Origin: Aquisphaera giovannonii
GTDB lineage: Bacteria; Planctomycetota; Planctomycetia; Isosphaerales; Isosphaeraceae
NCBI RefSeq assembly: GCF_008087625.1
Contig: NZ_CP042997.1
Coordinates: 2,170,001-2,234,000, forward strand
Direction: 5' to 3'
Length of the DNA: 64,000 bases
Part shown: positions 34,607 through 48,597 of the stretch, one piece after another
Position numbering within the stretch: the stretch's first letter is position 1
Layout: every line of letters begins with the position of its first letter
The notes under the pieces: model-generated
Seen by the model: the letters and a program-made list of their open reading frames with translations, nothing else
Told to the model about the DNA's origin: nothing
Database searches by the model: none
Program-made: the position numbers and the translations under genes

Positions 34607-34733
34607 TCCGCCTCCGACTTTCGCGTCGCCGAGCGGGTATCATGGGGCCGCGCGGCTCCCCCCGCGCTCCGCCTCCGACTTTCGCGTCGCCGAGCGGGTA
34701 TCATGGGGCCGCGCGGCTCCCCCCGCGCTCCGC
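34607..34733. repeat. 61-bp tandem direct repeat, two copies
   Basis: Copy 1 is 34607-34667 and copy 2 starts at 34668. The match continues for 5 more bases, to 34733, with no mismatch seen. Each unit holds GGGTATCATGGGG and a GC-rich near-palindrome GGGGCCGCGCGGCTCCCC. It lies directly upstream of the amidase gene. Confidence 0.95.
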
Positions 34734-35836: not shown

Positions 35837-36735
35837 ACATCGCCGTCACGGGGGCGACCGGCTTCCTGGGGCGTTACATCGTCGCCCGCCTCGCCGGGGC
35901 GGGCCACCGCCTCCGCTGCTGGCACCGGCCGTCCAGCGACCGGTCCCACTTCCCCGGCGCGGTCCCCGAGGGCGCCGTGACCTGGATCGAGGGCGGCCTC
36001 GGGGATCCCGGGGCCGTGGATCGGCTGCTGGACGGGGCCGACGCCGTCGTCCACTCGGCCCTGTCCCGCACGGGCGGGTTCCAGGCCCCTCCCGCGGACC
36101 TGACGGGCTATCTCCAGCTCAATCTGATGGGCTCGCTGGCCCTGATGGACGCGGCCCGACGCGCAGGGCTGTCGCGATTCGTCTTCGTCTCCACCTGCGC
36201 CGTGTACGACCGCATCCTGCCCGACCGGCCGCTCGATGAGGCCCATCCCGCGTGGCCGGCGAGCGATTATGGGGCCCACAAGGCGGCGATCGAGGCTTTC
36301 GTGCACAGCTTCGGCTTCGGGCACGGCTTCCCGGCTTGCGCCCTGAGGCCGACGGGCATCTACGGCCTCGCGCATCCGGCCCACGCGAGCAAGTGGTACG
36401 GCCTGGTGCGGAGCGTGGCCCGGGGCGAGCCGGTCCGGGTCTCGAAGGGAGGCAAGGAGGTCCACGCGGCGGACGTCGCCCGGGCCGTGGAGATCCTCCT
36501 GCTGGCCGAGGAGGGCCGGATCCTGGGCGAGTCGTTCAACTGCTACGACCGGTACGTGTCGGAGCGGGAGGTCGCCGAGATCGCTCGGCGGCTGACGGGG
36601 AGCGCCTCGGACATCACGGGCCCGGCCCCGTCGCCCCGGAACCAGATCGCCGTCGGCAAGCTGGCCGCGCTCGGGATGGAGTATGGGGGGCTCACCCTGC
36701 TGGAGGGCACGATCGCCCGGATGATCGAGGCCTGA
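35833..36735 (+). CDS. NAD(P)-dependent epimerase/dehydratase (SDR)
   Basis: 300 aa extended SDR. GATGFLG near residue 7 is the GxxGxxG nucleotide motif. The catalytic Tyr and Lys are in SDYGAHKAAIEAF, and Ser/Thr is in FVSTCAVYD. It likely acts on a nucleotide sugar or similar. The ATG overlaps the amidase stop (ATGA), so it is coupled to the amidase and may serve cell-wall or polysaccharide metabolism. This link is inference. Confidence 0.9.
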   Translation: MNIAVTGATGFLGRYIVARLAGAGHRLRCWHRPSSDRSHFPGAVPEGAVTWIEGGLGDPGAVDRLLDGADAVVHSALSRTGGFQAPPADLTGYLQLNLMGSLALMDAARRAGLSRFVFVSTCAVYDRILPDRPLDEAHPAWPASDYGAHKAAIEAFVHSFGFGHGFPACALRPTGIYGLAHPAHASKWYGLVRSVARGEPVRVSKGGKEVHAADVARAVEILLLAEEGRILGESFNCYDRYVSEREVAEIARRLTGSASDITGPAPSPRNQIAVGKLAALGMEYGGLTLLEGTIARMIEA

Positions 36736-36758
36736 CCACCCGGGCTCGTGGCCGTCGC

Positions 36759-38837
36759 TCAGGGATTCGTCGAGGCCGTCGCGACCGACGGCGGTGCGTC
36801 CGGCCCGATCGGCGCCGATGCCGGGGCCGGCAGCGCGTGGGGGTTGGCGACGACCCGGTCGCCCTGCTTCAGGCCCGCGACCACCTCCACGTAGTCGGCG
36901 TCGCTGGCTCCGAGCCGGATGGGCTTCCAGTCCCAGGCGTCCTTGGGCGTGGAGGAGCCCCGATGGACGGCGGCGTAATGCCGGTCGCCGAAGCTCCGGA
37001 TCGCGGTGACCGGGATCCGAGTGACGTTCGGGTGGGTGTCGGTCTTGAAGAAGACCTCCGCCGTCAGGCCCGGGCGGAGGTCGTCGAAGCCCTCCGCGAT
37101 CCTCACGCTGGCGAAGTAGATGCGGACGTCGGAAAACGGGCCGTTGACGGGCGTCGAGATGGCGGTCACCGCTTCCACCACGCCGCGGATGGTGCGATCG
37201 GGGAAGGCGTCGATCCGAATGATGGCCGGCTGGCCGACCTTGACGAATGCAACCTTCGTCTCGTTGATCCGCGTCTTGACCCGCATGTTCTTGGGATCGG
37301 GCAGCTCGAAGATCGGCTGGTCCTGCCGCACGGTGACGCCCTGCTCGATCTGCGCCTCCACGCGGCCCCAGGGATTGGTCGTCGGCTTGTAGACGACCGT
37401 CCCGTCGATCGGCGCCCTCATCGTGCAGTTGTCGATGCACTTCTGGAGCCTCGCCAGGCGCTGCTTCTCGAGCTCGAAGGCGGCTTCCTGAGTCTTCTTG
37501 TCGGCCTGGATGGCCATCAGCTTCGCCTCGAGCTGCTTCAGGTTCTTCGGGCCGGTGTACTTCTCGAGGCGTTCCAGCATGCCCTGGGCTTCCTCGAGGG
37601 CGATGCCGGCCTGCTGGTCGCTCAGCTCGTCGGCGCGGAGCTGCGAGGAGGCACGGAAGCCCTTCTTCGCCATGTCCCTCGACCATGCGAGATTCCGGCT
37701 CGTCTGCTCCTTCGTGATCTCGCAGGTCTTGATGTATTGCTTGATCAGCCCGAGGTCCTGGGGCAGGATGCCGTCGCGATACTCCCTGAGCGTGATCTCC
37801 GTCACTTCGAAGATCGCGCGGGCCTGTTCCACCCACGCCTTCGCCTGGGCGTAGCGGATGAGCTGCGACTTCACCTCGTCCTGGAAGGCCGAGCTGTCGA
37901 GTTCGCAGACCACGTCTCCCTTGCGGACCTTGCTGCCCTCCGGGACGATGCTGATGATGCGGGTCGCGCCCGGCTTCTCCTCTTCCATGGAGCCCCCGCC
38001 CCCGCGGCCTCCGCGTCCGCCGCCACGCCCTCCCCCGCCTCCGCCGCCTGAAGAGGACGACTGGGAACCCTTCGCGGCCGTGGTCGTCGTGCTCTTCGCG
38101 GAGCCACGCAGGGGGGTATGGGGAGTGACCATGTAACTGAAGCTACGGATGCTCGGCTTCATGGTGGCCGTCGACCCGGATGCGTCGCCGCTCGACGATC
38201 CGGAACCGTCGGAGGAGCTTCCGCCTCCGGAGGAGCTGCCGCTCCCGCTGCCACCGCTCGATCCACTCCCGGACGAGGAGCCGCTGCTGGAGGAGGTCGC
38301 ACTCCCAGATGACTTGCTCTTGGACGAACCCTTGGTGCCGGAACCGCCCGCCTTGGACTTCGCCTTGGATGTTGCAGTCGTCTGCGTCGTCTGGGCTGCT
38401 GACGTGCCCCCCGCCGCCGTGCCCCCCGCCGTCGTCCCTCCCGCCGTGGTGCCGCCGGCGGTCGTCCCATTCGACCCCGAGCCCGTGCCCGTGCCGGTCT
38501 TGTTCCCAGAACCCGTACCCGAGGTGCCCGAGCCACCGCCGACCATGCCGAGCAGGGCCTCCACCTCGCATTTCACGACCGTATTGGAGGCGCTCTCCAG
38601 CGAGCCGTTCTCCACCACGTACTCGATCACGTCGCCCTGGTCGATCTCCACCAGGGGGAGCATCTCCGCGGACGCCTGTGCGGCCAACAGCGGCGGACGG
38701 TAGCCGACGGCCCAGGCCCACCCCAGCCCGCCTACGGCCGCGATCGCGGCCAGCGCGGTGAGCCTCCCCAGCATACGGTTTCGCGGCTCGGGCCGCTCAA
38801 GCAGGATGCGGTCGTCGGAGCTCTTGATTTCGGCCAT
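36759..38837 (-). CDS. HlyD-like adaptor with large Ser/Gly-rich insert
   Basis: 692 aa from ATG 38837. A membrane helix at 25-45 is followed by the first lipoyl strand (DVIEYVVENGSLESAS, about 70-84). From about residue 97 to 290 comes a low-complexity run of Ser, Gly, Thr and Lys. The second part ATRIISIVPEG starts at 291, followed by KVRKGDVVCELDS, a long coiled coil (about 310-450) and a barrel plus membrane-proximal domain. Such adaptors link inner-membrane pumps to outer channels. No pump or channel gene is adjacent; it resembles the adaptor in the 46.7-48.6 kb operon. The 690 bases upstream hold no gene. Confidence 0.9.
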   Translation of the reverse strand: MAEIKSSDDRILLERPEPRNRMLGRLTALAAIAAVGGLGWAWAVGYRPPLLAAQASAEMLPLVEIDQGDVIEYVVENGSLESASNTVVKCEVEALLGMVGGGSGTSGTGSGNKTGTGTGSGSNGTTAGGTTAGGTTAGGTAAGGTSAAQTTQTTATSKAKSKAGGSGTKGSSKSKSSGSATSSSSGSSSGSGSSGGSGSGSSSGGGSSSDGSGSSSGDASGSTATMKPSIRSFSYMVTPHTPLRGSAKSTTTTAAKGSQSSSSGGGGGGGRGGGRGGRGGGGSMEEEKPGATRIISIVPEGSKVRKGDVVCELDSSAFQDEVKSQLIRYAQAKAWVEQARAIFEVTEITLREYRDGILPQDLGLIKQYIKTCEITKEQTSRNLAWSRDMAKKGFRASSQLRADELSDQQAGIALEEAQGMLERLEKYTGPKNLKQLEAKLMAIQADKKTQEAAFELEKQRLARLQKCIDNCTMRAPIDGTVVYKPTTNPWGRVEAQIEQGVTVRQDQPIFELPDPKNMRVKTRINETKVAFVKVGQPAIIRIDAFPDRTIRGVVEAVTAISTPVNGPFSDVRIYFASVRIAEGFDDLRPGLTAEVFFKTDTHPNVTRIPVTAIRSFGDRHYAAVHRGSSTPKDAWDWKPIRLGASDADYVEVVAGLKQGDRVVANPHALPAPASAPIGPDAPPSVATASTNP

Positions 38838-39527
38838 GGTGTTTCTGGTCGGGCCAGGGGTGAAGGATGGATGCCATGGCGGCATGCTGCCTAAGGCCGA
38901 TTGCCTCATGCCGTCGCCGGAGGGCCGGGCAAGGGGGGGAGCATGTATGCCGTGGCTTACGGTCGATTTTCCTCTTTATCGGTCGGAACGGCAAGCGATC
39001 CATGTTGGGACCGCGAAATCAATCCCCCTATAAAGAAGCGACATGGACCCGCTCCATGGACCAGGAATCGCCTCTCGAACGAGTCCGGGTGGGCAGAAGA
39101 TCGCTGCCCGATTCCGGCCGCATTCGTATTCGCATCCCGCCAAGCAGGCAACGCTTCGACCCGGGTTTTGGGGTGCGATGGTGACGATCGATCCGGTCGG
39201 AAGGCCACCGCCCTTAACTTGAGTTTTTTCGGCGAAACGGAGCTAGGTTTTCCCTGGCCACCGGAATAATCTGGTCGCTTGCCATGACCGGCTCGGACGA
39301 TCCCATGCCGTCGATTGGAATCGTCGAAAGGTCAGTCAAACTCGAGAATTGCATCAGCGAGGAGCTAGCGCAGTCCGGGCGAGAGGAGAGGAGGGGCTTC
39401 CCGGCAAGCGCCGGGGCGCTGACAGGGATGGGATGCAGCCGGTGAAGGGCGCGAGGGGTGCTCAAGCACCCCGAGGCCGCCCGATCACTCCCACCCTCGT
39501 CGCGCCCTTTGCTTGCCGGAGGGATGA
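38838..39527. other. intergenic region with structured leader
   Basis: About 690 bases without a credible gene. Seen: TTGGGA (39005-39010), 18-base spacer, TATAAA (39029-39034) as a possible plus-strand promoter; a palindrome CATGGA-N5-TCCATG at 39042-39058; and the hairpin listed at 39445-39509. Confidence 0.5.
39445..39509 (+). promoter_or_regulatory. nested hairpin in the matrixin leader
   Basis: Outer arms AAGGGCGCGA (39445-39454) and TCGCGCCCTT (39500-39509) are complementary. An inner perfect hairpin GGGGTGC-TCAA-GCACCCC lies at 39455-39472. A T follows the outer right arm. It precedes the matrixin ribosome-binding site by 9 bases and could act on its translation or transcription. Confidence 0.5.
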
Positions 39528-41318
39528 ATGGTCTGGCCCGCGGCCGATGCGCTCGGAGAGCGCATCGGGATTGTCGTCAGGGAAGGGCTCCTCCATCGGA
39601 GACGAGCGGACCGCGATCGCCCGAATCGACCGCGGCGGGAGGCTCGGCCCCGCGTATTCGACCGACTCGAAGCTCGCGAGCTGCTGGCCGTCGTGCCGGG
39701 CAACGACTACGTCCTCTCCGGCTACAAATGGTCGAATCCCGGGCACATCACCTACAGCATCGCCCCCGACGGCGTGCTCTGGGATCACGGCGTCAATGAT
39801 CTGAACGCCGTGTTCAACGCCAAGTTCGGCACCGACGGCGCCTGGCAGGCAGCGATCGCGCGGGCCCTCGCGACGTGGGAGTCCGTGGCGAACATCAACA
39901 TCGTGCCCACGACCGACGGGCCCTACAGCGAGGATGTTTTCGGGTACTCCCAGGGGGATGCCCGTTTCGGTGACATCCGCCTGGGCGGCTATTCCTTCCC
40001 GGGAAAGTCGAGCACGCTCGCCCAGACGTACTTCCCGCCTCCCAACGGCTCGACCGCGGCCGGGGACGTGGAGGTCAACACCTCGATGAATTTCGGCATG
40101 GGGAGCGATTACGACTTTTACAGCGTCATCCTCCACGAACTGGGCCATTCCCTCGGGCTGGACCACGCCAAGAACCCGGCGGACGTCATGTACGCCAACT
40201 ATCAGGGCGTGCGGACGGGCCTGGCCGAGGGGGACATCGCCGGGATCCAGGCGATCTACGGCGCGCGGACGCTCGACGCCTATCAGGCGAAGGGGCAGGG
40301 CCTCGGTTATTCATCCGCCATCGACGTGTCCGCCGGGCTGGCCGGCGCGAACAGCCTGGGCCTCTCGAACCTCTCCCTGGCGGCCATCGGCGACGCCGAG
40401 TACTTCACCTTCACCGCGCCGAGCTACGCCTCGGGGGTCATCCGGGTCACGGCCTCCGCGGCGAACGTCAGCATGCTCAGCCCCGAGGTTCGACTCTACG
40501 ATGCGGCCGGGAATCTCCTGGCGTCCGCATCGAACCCCGCGGCCTGGAGCGACGGGGTCACGGCTGAGGCGGCGAGCGTCGTTCCGGGCCAGAAATACTA
40601 CGCCGTGGTCTCCGGCGCGACGGGAGACGTCTTCTCCGTCGGCTCGTACAACCTGACCGTCGCCCTCCCTGCCAGTGCGCCGCCGCCGCCGTCGACACCA
40701 ACGCCCCCGGCGAGTCCCGGCTCCGGCACTTCCGGGTCCTCCGGCATCACTCCGACGTCGACCACATCTCCGTCACCGGATCGCCTGGAGCCCAACGATA
40801 CGCCCGGGGCCGCCACCGGCCTGGGGCGACTCACGCACGTGACGGTGGGCGGGCTCACGCTGTCGAGTGCCGCGGACGTGGACGACTTCACGTTCCGGGT
40901 GGGCTCCTCGGGACGCTATCTGGTGGGCGCGGCCGGCGTGAAGATCCAGGTCTATAACGCGCGGGGCCGCCTCATCGCCGGCGGGACCGACGCCGTCAAC
41001 CTGCCCCCGTCCAGGGCCGGCACCCCCTTCCTCGTCCGCATCTCGTCGGCGACCGGGGCGCCGGTCTCGGCATACTCGCTGACCGTGAGCACGGTCTCCC
41101 CATTCGCGGCCCGGCGGACGGTCAGGACGGTCCGGCATCAGCTGACCGACCTCGCGGCGGTGACCGGGGCGTCGGCATCGGCGGCGAAAAGCCGGCCCGC
41201 GCCGATCTCGACTCCCGTCCGGGAGCTGGCGGTCCGCGTCGCCCTCGGTTTCAGGGCCGGCATGCTGCGCGGGCACCTCACGGGGCTGGCTCGGAGGAGG
41301 CCTCCCGGCGGCGGGTGA
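39528..41318 (+). CDS. secreted matrixin-type zinc metalloprotease with PPC domains
   Basis: 596 aa. Ribosome-binding site GGAGGG at 39518. The basic N-terminus ends in [10 protein letters not shown], the planctomycete LEPR-XLL-like motif, so it is likely exported. The protease domain opens with [11 protein letters not shown] and has [11 protein letters not shown] with zinc ligands His203, His207 and His213, followed by the Met-turn in PADVMYANY. Two beta-rich pre-peptidase C-terminal (PPC) repeats follow, around residues 260-385 and 425-520, separated by a Pro/Ser-rich linker. The end is Arg-rich. It probably degrades extracellular protein. Confidence 0.92.
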
Positions 41319-41389
41319 GGCCCGATCCCGGGGCGGGGCGCCCGGGCGATGCCGCCGGCCTCCGCCCTGCCGGCTCCCCGTGCTCGGAT

Positions 41390-41418
41390 TTGAAGGACGC
41401 GCCCTCTCGTGGTAGTTT
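41390..41418 (+). promoter_or_regulatory. putative sod promoter
   Basis: TTGAAG (41390-41395), 17-base spacer, TAGTTT (41413-41418), about 110 bases before the sod start. Confidence 0.5.
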
Positions 41419-41527
41419 GAGCGGGACGCATTCCCCCCTTCCGCATGAAGGGCCTTTCCTCCCGACTCCGGGGGGGCATGGAGCCTCAGGCGGGAACTCT
41501 CGCGACCATCACCAGAGGAGCGACACC

Positions 41528-42145
41528 GTGGCCGACTACACCCTTCCCCCGCTGCCGTACGACTCCGGAGCTCTGGAGCCTCACATCGACGCCAAGACGA
41601 TGGAGATCCACCACGACAAGCACCACGCGGCGTACGTCAACAACCTGAACGCGGCGTTGAAGGACCACCCCAACCTCCAGGGCAAGACGATCGAGGCGCT
41701 GATCTCCGACCTCAACGCCGTCCCCGAGGCCATCCGCACCGCGGTGCGGAACAATGGCGGCGGCCACGCCAATCATTCGCTCTTCTGGCAGGTGATGAAG
41801 CCCGGCGGGGGCGGCGAGCCGACCGGGGCGGTCGGGAAGGCCATCGAGGGCGAGCTGGGCGGGTTCGCCGCGTTCAAGGAGGCCTTCACGAAGGCGGCCA
41901 CCACGCGGTTCGGGTCGGGCTGGGCCTGGCTCGTCGTCGGGAAGGACGGGAAGCTGAGCGTCACGTCGACGGCCAATCAAGACAACCCCATCATGGAAGG
42001 CACGACGCCCCTCCTGGGCCTCGACGTCTGGGAGCACGCCTACTACCTCAAGTATCAGAACCGCCGTCCGGATTACATCGGCGCCTGGTGGAACACGATC
42101 AACTGGGACGAGGTCAATCGTCGGTACGAGTCCGCGAAGGGCTGA
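41528..42145 (+). CDS. sodA: Fe/Mn superoxide dismutase
   Basis: 205 aa from GTG 41528 with GAGGAG at 41515-41520. It removes superoxide. Metal ligands sit in IHHDKHH (His28), NHSLFW and LDVWEHAYY (Asp and His). [11 protein letters not shown] and TANQDNP, with the Gln in the latter place, fit the manganese type more than the iron type. No signal peptide, so cytoplasmic. The metal choice is inference from these positions. Confidence 0.95.
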
Positions 42146-44528: not shown

Positions 44529-45806
44529 TTATTCGTGGCGGAGCGCCTCGATCGGGTCCATCATCGCGGCGCGTCGGGCCGGATAGAGGCCGAAGAGGAT
44601 GCCGATTCCCACCGAGATGCTGAAGGCGAGGATCACCGAAAAGGGGGTCACGAACGCCTTCTGGTCGGGGATGAAGTACACAATCATGTAGGGGATGACG
44701 ATGCCCAGGGTGACCCCCAGCACGCCGCCGACCCCCGAGAGCACGACGGTCTCGATGAGGAACTGCTGGGTGATGTCCTTCCGCTTGGCGCCCAGGGCGC
44801 GGCGGATGCCGATCTCCCGCGTCCGCTCGGTGACGGTCGCCAGCATGATGTTCATGATGCCGATGCCGCCGACGAGCAGCGAGATCGCCGCGATGGTCCC
44901 GAGGATGATGTTGAACTGGCGGGCCGTCTGCTGGGCCGCGACGAGCAGGTCGTACGGGACCGTCATCTCGACGTCCTTGCGGGGGTGCCAGGGCTCGTAG
45001 GCCGCCTTGATGATCGGCACGGTCGGCCGGACCTCGTCGGTCGAGCCCACCTTGAGGGTGATCTGCGAGAGCTGGGTCTCCTCGGCCTCCATCGAGCCGG
45101 AGCGGTTGTTCACGATCTTCTCGCCGAACCGCACCTTGCAGGTGTTCAGCGGGATGTACACGTCCTTGTTGAAGTCCTGGGCGGCGAGGCTGCCGGAGGT
45201 GCCGGCGGTGCTCTGCCGCTCCTTCGTGACCCCGACCACGGTGTAGTAGTCGGAGCCCAGCTTCACGGAGAGCCCGATCGGGTCCTCGTAGGGGAAGAGG
45301 GTCTTCGCCGTGGTGGCGGCGAGCACGGCGTAGTTCTGGAACCGCTCGTTGTCCGCGGCCGTGAGGAACCGGCCGCGGTCGATCTCGAGCATGCTGAAGT
45401 CCGCGTAGTCCTCCGTGGTGCCGACGACCCGGCCGTCCAGGAAGTACTGGTAGCGCCGGATCTGCTTGCGGATCTCGCGGATCGGCAGCACCTTGCGGAT
45501 CGTCGGCACGGTCTCCACGATCCGATCGTAGTCGTTGTACTTGATGCCGTAGTTGAGGATCCGGGACGGCCTGCCGCCGGTGGCCTGGGCCTCGTCGCTG
45601 GGCTTGACCGAGCGGATGATGATGTTCGTGGCGCCCAGGGCCCGGATGCGCTCCAGCGCGTCCCGGCTGGAGCCCTCGGCGATCGCCAGCATGGAGATCA
45701 CGGCCGCGACGCCGAAGACCGTGCCCAGCACCGTCAACCCGGAGCGGAGCTTGTGCAGCAGCAGGCTCTTCATCCCCAGCCGCAAGGCCCGCCAGATGCG
45801 TCCCAT
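44529..45806 (-). CDS. MacB-like ABC transporter permease (FtsX fold)
   Basis: 425 aa. One N-terminal membrane helix (about 20-42), a large periplasmic MacB_PCD domain (about 50-290) and three C-terminal helices with IGIMNIMLATVTERTREIGIRRALGAKRKDI, quoted here as two runs: IGIMNIMLATVTER and TREIGIRRALGAK. This is the mechanotransmission type of permease used in tripartite export. Last gene of the operon, 50 bases after the ATPase gene. Confidence 0.95.
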   Translation of the reverse strand: MGRIWRALRLGMKSLLLHKLRSGLTVLGTVFGVAAVISMLAIAEGSSRDALERIRALGATNIIIRSVKPSDEAQATGGRPSRILNYGIKYNDYDRIVETVPTIRKVLPIREIRKQIRRYQYFLDGRVVGTTEDYADFSMLEIDRGRFLTAADNERFQNYAVLAATTAKTLFPYEDPIGLSVKLGSDYYTVVGVTKERQSTAGTSGSLAAQDFNKDVYIPLNTCKVRFGEKIVNNRSGSMEAEETQLSQITLKVGSTDEVRPTVPIIKAAYEPWHPRKDVEMTVPYDLLVAAQQTARQFNIILGTIAAISLLVGGIGIMNIMLATVTERTREIGIRRALGAKRKDITQQFLIETVVLSGVGGVLGVTLGIVIPYMIVYFIPDQKAFVTPFSVILAFSISVGIGILFGLYPARRAAMMDPIEALRHE

Positions 45807-45856
45807 GTCAGCGCCTTCCCCTTCGGCAAACTACGGACGACCCCCCGCGCGGGGGG

Positions 45857-46699
45857 TCACTCGGTCTCCCACACCTCGCCCGGCGCCCCGCCGTCGGTGA
45901 CGGCCACGGCGCCCTGGCCCTGCATCATCCTCGGGCTCGGCCCGTCCTCGACGATCCGGCCGTCCTGCATGCGGATGATCCGCTTGGCGTGCTCGGCGAT
46001 GTCCTGCTCGTGCGTCACCATGATGATGGTCTTGCCGGCGTCGTTGAGCCGGCCGAGCATCGCCATGATCTCGTGGCTGGTCTTCGTGTCCAGGTTCCCG
46101 GTCGCCTCGTCGGCGAGGATGATGTACGGGTCGTTGATCAGCGAGCGGGCGATGGCGACGCGCTGCTGCTGGCCGCCGGAGAGCTGGGTGGGGCGGTGGT
46201 CGAACCGGTCGCCGAGCCCGACGAGCTTGGCCAGCTCGAGCGAACGCTCGTGGGCCTCGGGGCTGATCTCCCCGCCGCCCTGGTACGTCAGCGGGAGCTG
46301 GATGTTCTCCAGCACCGTGTACTGCTGGATCAGGTTGTACGACTGGAAGATGAAGCCGAGGTACCGGCTGCGGACCTCCGAGAGCTCGTCGTCGTCGAGC
46401 CGGGAGACGTCACGCCCCCCCAGCAGGTACTGGCCGCTGCTCGGCCGGTCGAGGCAGCCGAGCAGGTTCAGCATCGTGCTCTTGCCGGAGCCGGACGCCC
46501 CCATGATGGCGATGTACTCGCCGGGGTAGAAGTCCACGGACACGCCCCGGAGGGCGTGCACCGTGACCGCGGTGGTGTTCTTGTTGCGGCTGAAGAGGCC
46601 GCCGGACGTGTGATGCCCCATCACATACGTCTTCTTGACGTCGATGATGCTGACGATGGGCTCGTCGCCGCGTCCGTTCCCGTTGCCGGTGAAATCCAC
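45857..46699 (-). CDS. ABC transporter ATP-binding protein (MacB/LolD type)
   Basis: 280 aa from GTG 46699. Walker A GASGSGKST (residues 67-75), signature LSGGQQQRVAIAR, Walker B YIILADEATGNLD, H-loop MVTHEQD. A short insert near residues 29-45 (GHHTSGGLFSRNKNTTA) separates strands 1 and 2. The start follows the adaptor stop by 2 bases (TAG-CC-GTG) with GGGAGG just before, so translation is coupled. The C-terminal tail after residue 255 is polar. Confidence 0.96.
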   Translation of the reverse strand: MDFTGNGNGRGDEPIVSIIDVKKTYVMGHHTSGGLFSRNKNTTAVTVHALRGVSVDFYPGEYIAIMGASGSGKSTMLNLLGCLDRPSSGQYLLGGRDVSRLDDDELSEVRSRYLGFIFQSYNLIQQYTVLENIQLPLTYQGGGEISPEAHERSLELAKLVGLGDRFDHRPTQLSGGQQQRVAIARSLINDPYIILADEATGNLDTKTSHEIMAMLGRLNDAGKTIIMVTHEQDIAEHAKRIIRMQDGRIVEDGPSPRMMQGQGAVAVTDGGAPGEVWETE

Positions 46700-46701
46700 G
46701 G

Positions 46702-48597
46702 CTAGTTCCCTCCCCCGCCGCCCGGAGGGCCGCCGCCGAAGCCGCCGCCCGGCGGGCCGCCGCCCTGGCGCATCTGCTCGCGCATCTGCCGCATCTGATC
46801 CAGCTCCTCGTCCGTGAAGCCGGCCTTCTTCATGATGGCGGCCCGCTCCTCCTCGGAGGCGCCCTTGAGCTTGGCGCGGTCCTCGGCGGGGATGTTCTTC
46901 ATCTTCTCGAAGAGCGCCCCGCCGGCCCCGCCGCGGCCGCGCGCCCCCTTGGCCTTGGCCTTGCCGGGCTCGCCGCCCTTGGCCAGCTCGGCCTTGCCCG
47001 GAGGCCCGCCGGCGCCGGCCTTGCCGGGCTCGCCCGCCGGGCCGGCCGCCTCGCCCTCCTTGCCCTTGGCCGCCCCCCAGTCCTTCTTGCTGGCCCCGCG
47101 GCTGCCGTTGCCGGCGATCTCGCGCCGCTGCTCCTCGGTCAGGAGGACCGTCGGGTTGAGGGCCACGACCGTGCCGTTGGTCAGCCCCTTGGTCACCTCG
47201 ACGAACTTGTCGTTGGTCACGCCCAGCTCGATCTCACGCCGCTCGAAGCCGGCGGGCGTGCGCACCATCAGGTGGTCCTTCCCGCCGTACTCCAGGATCG
47301 CCTGCACGGGGACGCTGAGGACGTTCTCCTTGCGATCGACCAGGATGGTCACCTCCGCGTTCATGCCCGGCCGCAGGCCAGGCAGCGGGTTCTCGATCCG
47401 GACCTTCGTGGTGTAGACCTTGATGTCCGAGCTGAAGAAGCTGGACGGGTCGGGCAGGGGGGCCACCTCCTGGACCGTGCCCTCCAGCTCCATGTCGGCG
47501 AAGGCGTCCACGCGGATCCGGGCCTTCATGCCCGAGGCGATCTTGTCGATCTGGGATTCGTGGACCTTGGCGTTCACCTGCATCTTCTGGATGTCGGGGA
47601 GGCTGAAGATCTTCTGACGCTCGCGGACGGTGGCCCCCTCCTCGATCTGGGGCGCGGTGCTGCCGAAGTTCTTCCCCGGATCATTGGCGTAGACCACGAT
47701 CCCGTCGCCGGGCGCGAACAGCTTGCAGTTGGCGATCTGCTTCTCGAGCTTGGCCTCCTTGGTCTTCTCGAGCTCCCAGGCCTGCTGCTTGGCGTACTCG
47801 TCGGACTTGGCCTTCTCGACCTCGGAGGTCAGCTCCTTGATCGTCTTGTTCTTCGTATACTCCTCCAGGACCTTCAGCTTGGTCTGGGCCTGCTCCAGGG
47901 CGAACTTGGCCTTCTGATAGGTCAGCTCCTCGGAGACCTTCGAGGCCTTCGAGACGTAGCCCTTCTCCCACATCCGGTTGGACCAGTCCACGCGGTCCTC
48001 GGACCGCTTCAGGTCGGACTCCGCGAGCTTGATCTCGCCCTGGATCGTCGCCTGGTCCTGGAGGTAGATGCCCTCCATGTACTCCTTGACGGCGATCTGG
48101 GCGACCTCGCGGGTGAGCTTGGCGTTCTGGAAGGAGGCCTCGGCGGACTGGGTCGAGATCTTCTGATTCGTGAACGAGTCCCGCAGCGAGGCGGAGTCGA
48201 GCTCGCAGACCAGCTCGCCCTTCTTGACCTTCGTGCCCTCGGGGACGATGGAGATGATCGTCGTGGAGCCCTCGACCTGGCAGAGGACGTCCTGATTCTT
48301 GGAGCTCTCCAGCGACCCCTTGTCGGCGACGGTGATCGGCAGCACGCCGGTCTTCACCTCGAAGGGGATGACGTCCACGTCGGCCGGCTTGAAGAAGCCG
48401 CGGATCGGCTTGCTCAGCCCCGGGACGCTGATGACCGTGATCCCCCCCAGGGCGAGCAGCGCGACGAGCCCGATGACCAGGAGCTTACCGACGGGGGCCC
48501 TGCGCCGGCTGGGGCGCTGGAGCGGAGGCAGGTCGTGCGGAGGCGCCGCCGCCTTGGCTGAGGATGGGTCCCCGGTATTCTGAAGGGAAAAGTTCAC
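46702..48597 (-). CDS. MacA/HlyD-like periplasmic adaptor
   Basis: 631 aa from GTG 48597 with GGGAGG 7 bases upstream. Cytoplasmic basic segment, membrane helix at about 38-58, then lipoyl halves TVADKGSLESSKN and TTIISIVPEGTKVKKGELVCELD flanking a coiled coil (about 140-275), a barrel (NPLPGLRPGMNAEVTI) and a membrane-proximal domain. The C-terminal 120 residues are an extra Gly/Ala/Lys/Pro-rich tail containing a short charged helix ELDQMRQMREQMRQ and ending in a Gly/Pro run. It overlaps the upstream TolC-like gene by 113 bases. Confidence 0.94.
   Translation of the reverse strand: MNFSLQNTGDPSSAKAAAPPHDLPPLQRPSRRRAPVGKLLVIGLVALLALGGITVISVPGLSKPIRGFFKPADVDVIPFEVKTGVLPITVADKGSLESSKNQDVLCQVEGSTTIISIVPEGTKVKKGELVCELDSASLRDSFTNQKISTQSAEASFQNAKLTREVAQIAVKEYMEGIYLQDQATIQGEIKLAESDLKRSEDRVDWSNRMWEKGYVSKASKVSEELTYQKAKFALEQAQTKLKVLEEYTKNKTIKELTSEVEKAKSDEYAKQQAWELEKTKEAKLEKQIANCKLFAPGDGIVVYANDPGKNFGSTAPQIEEGATVRERQKIFSLPDIQKMQVNAKVHESQIDKIASGMKARIRVDAFADMELEGTVQEVAPLPDPSSFFSSDIKVYTTKVRIENPLPGLRPGMNAEVTILVDRKENVLSVPVQAILEYGGKDHLMVRTPAGFERREIELGVTNDKFVEVTKGLTNGTVVALNPTVLLTEEQRREIAGNGSRGASKKDWGAAKGKEGEAAGPAGEPGKAGAGGPPGKAELAKGGEPGKAKAKGARGRGGAGGALFEKMKNIPAEDRAKLKGASEEERAAIMKKAGFTDEELDQMRQMREQMRQGGGPPGGGFGGGPPGGGGGN

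Follow-up and report, generated by a model that had tools for sequence, protein, structure and literature searches.

A conserved peptide between variable linkers inside the lipoyl domain of an HlyD-superfamily adaptor of the Isosphaeraceae

A long insert in a lone adaptor

What does a tract of about 190 Gly/Ser/Thr-rich residues do inside the lipoyl domain of a periplasmic adaptor? The question arises from a gene that we call ADAPTOR1 (36759..38837, minus strand of the window, the 64,000-nucleotide stretch of the Aquisphaera giovannonii genome analysed here), which encodes 692 residues from a Met at 38837 within an ORF that opens at 38909; residues are numbered from this Met, the start suggested by orthologues. 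By Pfam, ADAPTOR1 is an HlyD-superfamily adaptor, passing the curated cut-offs of both HlyD_D23 (43.5 vs 30 bits) and HlyD_3 (43.5 vs 22.2 bits), and its predicted model and a fold search agree with the HlyD/periplasmic adaptor (membrane fusion) superfamily, with lipoyl halves around an alpha-hairpin, followed by a beta-barrel. We do not call it MacA, because it fails the NCBIfam cut-offs, narrowly for RND_mfp (TIGR01730; 91.8 against 94.9, with its paralogue ADAPTOR2 scoring 118.4) and by far for the MacA equivalog NF008606 (51.6 bits against 342), and because the adjacent MacB next to which a MacA is encoded is absent, no transporter gene adjoining ADAPTOR1. Its predicted fold may nevertheless be described as MacA/EmrA-like.

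The original prediction placed a 190-residue Ser/Gly/Thr insert at residues 97-290, and alignment with ADAPTOR2, an insert-less paralogous adaptor (46702..48597, minus strand), bears this out at exactly that place: the first lipoyl half of ADAPTOR1 is split at 38549-37968, and the two proteins are 39% identical past the insert (382 columns) and 33% identical ahead of it (85 columns). At the insertion site ADAPTOR2 reads CQVEG-STTIISIVPEG, gapless, and indeed passes straight from CQVEG to TTIISIVPEG as had been claimed. The insert, all of it on the minus strand, is entered through a conserved segment, VKCEVEALLGMVGG (residues 88-101, 38535..38576), in which C90, V92, E93 and G97 are invariant in a 26-row alignment. 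Linker 1 follows (residues 98-226, 38160..38546), composed of Gly/Ser/Thr/Ala with Lys clusters, then a peptide, KPSIRSFSYMVTPHTPLR (residues 227-244, 38106..38159), and finally the Gly-rich linker 2 (residues 245-290, 37968..38105), which carries RGG units and ends in EEEKPG. The peptide had been overlooked in the original prediction; it is conserved and not of low complexity. The predicted Gly/Ser repeats are real, in the form of a 15-bp tandem repeat inside linker 1 (38403..38468; 4.4 copies, 80% matches) encoding GGTTA-type units, and besides this unit the tract holds only two short two-copy repeats. The reading frame stays open throughout. Beyond the insert lies the rest of the adaptor (36762..37967, minus strand), comprising a lipoyl strand, the alpha-hairpin (residues 316-391 and 397-470), the second lipoyl half, the beta-barrel and a membrane-proximal part, as given by AlphaFold2 secondary structure and by fold matches to 4tko, 4dk0 and 5nik, the domain names being assigned by analogy. 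On the plus strand of the window, a pair of overlapping antisense ORFs (184 and 193 aa) runs across the insert at 38149-38761, probably as a consequence of the skewed composition there.

The ADAPTOR1 gene stands alone. A convergent epimerase lies downstream, and genes for a Matrixin-type metallopeptidase and an Fe/Mn superoxide dismutase (window 39528-42145), divergent from ADAPTOR1, lie upstream. The nearest transporter genes seen (44529..46699, minus strand), about 6 kb away and accompanied by their own adaptor, ADAPTOR2, encode a MacB-like permease (44529-45806) and an ABC ATPase (45857-46699), recognised by the Pfam families MacB_PCD, FtsX and ABC_tran; a long ORF past ADAPTOR2, which has no Pfam match, was taken by eye as an outer-membrane factor. 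Among 30 loci from named genomes, which vary in length, the dismutase is found near ADAPTOR1 in 22, the MacB-like permease in 10, many of the loci being too short for the flank to reveal one, and ADAPTOR2 in 7. A search of 36600-39700 gave no promoter-like site, and three terminator-like sites vs 1.7 in shuffles. Further along, an exact 61-bp tandem repeat occupies window positions 34607-34733 (2.1 copies, 100% matches).

Conservation and distribution of the architecture

The in-frame C-terminal 402 residues of ADAPTOR1, used as query, matched in all 45 genomes of the family, which we took to be the Isosphaeraceae judging from named relatives. Reading the loci with the best ADAPTOR1-type match gave 45 loci from 44 genomes, G003 contributing two and G060 having paralogue-type matches only. 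At two loci (L074 and L075) the contig begins inside the gene, leaving 43 that are readable at the motif, and in G017, the genome of L074, the missing N-terminal half including the motif is present on another contig. All 44 readable orthologous copies, which come from 43 of the 45 family genomes, show the order linker 1, motif, linker 2; the other two genomes, G059, whose contig starts inside the gene, and G060, are not readable, and the motif profile finds no match in either. Looking for the insert in related genomes, as the original prediction had proposed, thus recovered it in every readable orthologous copy, and a search for orthologues lacking it found none. One of the two ADAPTOR1 copies in G003 (L056 and L061) carries the shortest linkers of all, 58 and 22 aa.

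The 18-residue motif (window 38159-38106) has the consensus [KR]PxIRSF[ST]YxVxPHxPLR. A strict version of this pattern fits 42 of the 43 readable loci, the remaining one (L072) lacking only the leading Lys/Arg. In a 22-column block spanning the motif, the 43 copies never vary at P3, S7 and F8; next come R6 (40/43), V12 (38/43), I5 and Y10 (36/43 each) and P17 (35/43). The motif codons look to be under purifying selection: pooled over 15 pairs, which share rows and for which the comparison of the body was ungapped, pN/pS comes to 0.17 in the motif and 0.25 in the body, and motif pN lies under body pN in 10 of the 15. The linkers on either side are hypervariable. Linker 1 ranges from 58 to 193 aa (median 97, 37 copies) and linker 2 from 22 to 68 aa (median 46, 42 copies), and both are made up of Gly/Ser/Thr/Ala with few acids, are almost free of aromatics and are mostly net positive. 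The net charge of linker 1 is +1 to +10 in 35 of 37 copies and negative in the other two, Asp and Glu together making up 0.7% of its residues; linker 2 contains RGG in 35 of 43 copies and has a zero or negative net charge in five of 43.

How far does this architecture extend? Among the 30 named loci, headed by Aquisphaera insulae at 77% and followed by Paludisphaera, Singulisphaera, Tautonia and various metagenome bins, the motif is present in all 30; by their identical values, many of these genomes are the same as those among the 45 family genomes. A whole-protein profile matched 246 of the 248 genomes of the class, and among the matches listed, those outside the family start at model position 245-278, past the insert. 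In other families of the class, none of the 19 adaptors sampled has the insert, the turn being longer by zero to about 7 residues (20 regions were retrieved, one an empty placeholder). The same holds for paralogues: in the window's own genome, where 17 matches including ADAPTOR1 itself were obtained and 10 regions retrieved, 7 of 7 with a readable site lack it, and 17 of 17 ADAPTOR2-type or other paralogues in family genomes are uninterrupted there, so that in all 24 of 24 readable family paralogues are without the insert and have at most about 14 extra residues. Across 294 phylum genomes, moreover, the motif profile matches in one alone, that of the window, and under an E of 0.01 it finds only ADAPTOR1 genes in the 45 family genomes, two matches on other contigs being pieces of ADAPTOR1. 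We therefore rejected the idea of the motif as a reusable module. In an unrooted tree of 69 rows (28 ADAPTOR1, 22 paralogues, 19 other-family), ADAPTOR1 falls on one side of a branch with 100/100 support. Among the genomes searched, the insert architecture is restricted to one family. This leaves a suggested role in the thick planctomycete periplasm unsupported, the insert being missing from all the other-family adaptors sampled and the motif from all but one of the phylum genomes.

Two further observations may be added. A distant adaptor paralogue, L208 (G000:C1:2434500-2438500), is lengthened at this lipoyl turn by about 14 residues, possibly a small analogue at the insertion site. At another locus of the family (L079:497-5264, minus strand; G000:C1 about 910496-915263), two ORFs lie side by side (880 and 754 aa), and in each of them Pfam finds sigma-70 regions 2 and 4 together with an HlyD adaptor domain; we read their sigma-70 parts as ECF-like, by eye L077 and L078 have similar N-termini, and a literature search on ECF sigma factors and HlyD in Planctomycetes found nothing.

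Predicted order of the peptide and a candidate docking loop

Two AlphaFold2 monomer models, of ADAPTOR1 on the 26-row alignment and of the orthologue L102 (linkers of 58 and 22 aa) on 25 rows, both with a pTM of 0.50-0.52, separate the peptide from its surroundings: linkers are predicted disordered (pLDDT 32-44) and the motif core ordered (82-89). In ADAPTOR1, residues 98-224 and 248-284 fall under pLDDT 50, with blocks at 32-36 for residues 101-220, and residues 231-240 average 89, the half-linker blocks on either side reaching 62 and 64. In L102 the motif blocks reach 84 and 82, and the linkers 33-44. At RSFS both models form a short helical turn, and neither has a strand in this stretch, leaving the alternative of a beta-strand, prompted by the alternating hydrophobics, unsupported. 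A short conserved motif amid variable linkers with predicted disorder is one mark of a tethered docking peptide, a functional class rather than a protein family; for the other mark, a binding site, the pointers are pLDDT and co-variation. Since even monomer models give the motif high confidence while its linkers stay disordered, the simplest reading is that the peptide packs on the rest of its own chain; the models thus suggest docking on the adaptor itself.

So where would it dock? Twenty-three columns, spread over the protein, are conserved in ADAPTOR1 and not in paralogues or other families. Two of them fall in a loop of the second lipoyl half (residues 484-496, 37350..37388, minus strand), a candidate contact that contains N488, W490 and R492: N488 is present in 91% of orthologues vs 18% and 11% in paralogues and other families, and W490 in 93% vs 14% and 0%. 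The alpha-hairpin has ortholog-specific residues of its own (Y368, C372, M420 and R423), and this docking layer could serve as an alternative site for the motif.

What points to the lipoyl loop is co-variation. The motif Tyr is replaced in seven of 43 rows (one by Phe), through six changes on the tree, and R492 is lost in 6 of these 7 rows vs 3 of the 36 with Tyr (p 9e-5), the exceptions being L050, a non-Tyr row that keeps Arg492, and the Tyr rows L040, L046 and L052, which are without it. When 214 body columns were each scored as consensus or non-consensus, R492 was the one most strongly associated with lack of the motif Tyr, and the adjacent column 491 the next; an earlier scan, in which single residues were tested and Phe was grouped with Tyr, had put 667 and 452 ahead of R492 in third place. 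In two cases (L044/L045 and L064/L066) Tyr and R492 changed together between congeneric rows, and for four independent pairs on well-supported branches an average of 3.7 agree (sign test p 0.125). As a control, none of 35 comparably scattered body columns has a partner at p 9e-5, though three come within a factor of two (1.2e-4, 1.2e-4 and 1.7e-4). Other motif columns also reach low p values elsewhere, namely m17 with 357 (3e-7) and with 332 and 450 (6e-5 each), m18 with 320 (1e-5) and 311 (7e-5), and m2 with 508 (9e-5); the m17 and m18 signals rest on only three to four changes, and several of these positions are clade-confounded. Taken on its sequence statistics, a contact between the motif Tyr and the R492 loop is suggestive.

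Known adaptors offer both parallels and differences. The best PDB sequence relatives of ADAPTOR1 are structures of MacA from MacAB-TolC (4dk0, 5nik, 3fpp, 9qgy), and 4dk0 shares the adaptor fold of the model (VIA Z 15.9, rmsd 7.3, 316 residues); since 316 of its 324 residues align, it has no comparable insert, and unlike MacA, ADAPTOR1 stands apart from MacB. The top fold match is 4tko (Z 18.1, rmsd 8.2, 312 residues), a structure of EmrA from EmrAB-TolC (also 8zal and 8zar); these comparisons were confined to Foldseek's own candidates, and the absence of a family from that set carries no meaning. A segment of EmrA that folds back to engage the neighbouring lipoyl domain (PMC13139468) is a precedent for docking of this kind, but in EmrA the elements are a coil after the beta-barrel and a long loop within it, whereas the internal peptide of ADAPTOR1 sits within the first lipoyl half and is tethered at either end. 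In MacA and in Spr0693, the MacA-like adaptor of Streptococcus pneumoniae (PDB 5xu0), lipoyl loops build a gating ring, formed in Spr0693 by the flexible loops Asn211-Val224, according to the accessible parts of PMC5768738 and PMC8277102. Spr0693 is thus a precedent for lipoyl loops that shape the pore, although its loop has about 14 residues and those parts describe no separate tethered peptide such as ADAPTOR1 has. The loop at 484-496 would lie beside the turn equivalent to the MacA/Spr0693 gating turn; the MacA alignment has an 8-residue gap just ahead of this region, which makes any residue-by-residue match to the MacA lipoyl gating residue Gln209 tentative. ADAPTOR2, of the same family and locus, differs in lacking the insert and in adjoining a MacB-like ATPase and permease. 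Titles and abstract openings on adaptors, MacA lipoyl domains, disordered linkers and planctomycete HlyD mention no such insert, and the words 'insertion' and 'planctomycet' are absent from the main text of a 2026 adaptor review (PMC13328181).

Readings of the insert

The reading to which we tentatively lean, at a little under an even chance, is that the insert is a doubly tethered cis-docking peptide, a staple or latch on the lipoyl ring. An HlyD-type adaptor would have acquired a flexible arm at a tight turn of its first lipoyl half, running from linker 1 through the 18-residue peptide to linker 2. The linkers, widely variable in length and sequence, would serve as tethers, and the peptide would fold back onto the adaptor, most likely onto the lipoyl ring of the same or a neighbouring protomer. 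From prediction and co-variation, its Tyr would then sit close to W490-G-R492, a loop in the second of the lipoyl halves, and the docked peptide would staple or latch the ring beside the pore, putatively steadying or gating the channel. In a bolder form, which we consider unlikely, six such peptides beside the lipoyl gating turns would make a reversible pore latch that is displaced for transport, and ADAPTOR1 would be an autoinhibited efflux adaptor, released by a ligand or partner, that evolved in one family.

The main rival, which we find doubtful, has the peptide dock in trans, as bait on a flexible arm that binds the periplasmic domain of a MacB-like protein, an outer-membrane factor, the second adaptor (ADAPTOR2) or the cell wall, and so recruits an orphan adaptor to a pump. 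Long linkers are suited to fishing for partners, and ADAPTOR1 has no adjoining transporter, yet a MacB-like pair with its own adaptor is not far off, as is a permease within the retrieved flank of a third of the named loci, many of them too short to reveal one. On the other hand, the motif core is already ordered in monomer models, and the motif Tyr weakly co-varies with a loop of the same protein. It is improbable, in our view, that the linkers are the working part, forming a brush or sieve of positive Gly/Ser/RGG arms at the lipoyl ring with the motif merely as anchor; the prevailing positive charge and scarcity of acids in linker 1 and the frequent RGG of linker 2 would fit, but linker length varies threefold, the sequence can barely be aligned, and some copies of either linker are not positive at all.

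Still less credit is due to a functionless, neutrally tolerated loop expanded by repeat slippage. The tandem repeats of linker 1, the hypervariability of both linkers and the extra residues of L208 at the same turn speak for it, while the retention of the motif in every readable copy and its low pN/pS speak against it, and for the motif we rejected pure filler on these grounds. The original prediction had left the choice between a tolerated disordered loop and a role of the insert's own: a role of its own is upheld for the conserved middle peptide, kept in all 44 orthologues and ordered in both models, and the tolerated loop may still fit the linkers. An error of assembly or frame, conceivable in a low-complexity, high-GC tract, has a negligible chance and was rejected, since orthologues from 43 genomes share the architecture and the frame is open through the tract.

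An adaptor of this build, present throughout the family and carrying a conserved 18-residue peptide on long disordered tethers in its lipoyl domain, would be a novel means of controlling or putting together a tripartite pump. The locus also illustrates that a low-complexity tract can conceal a conserved element.
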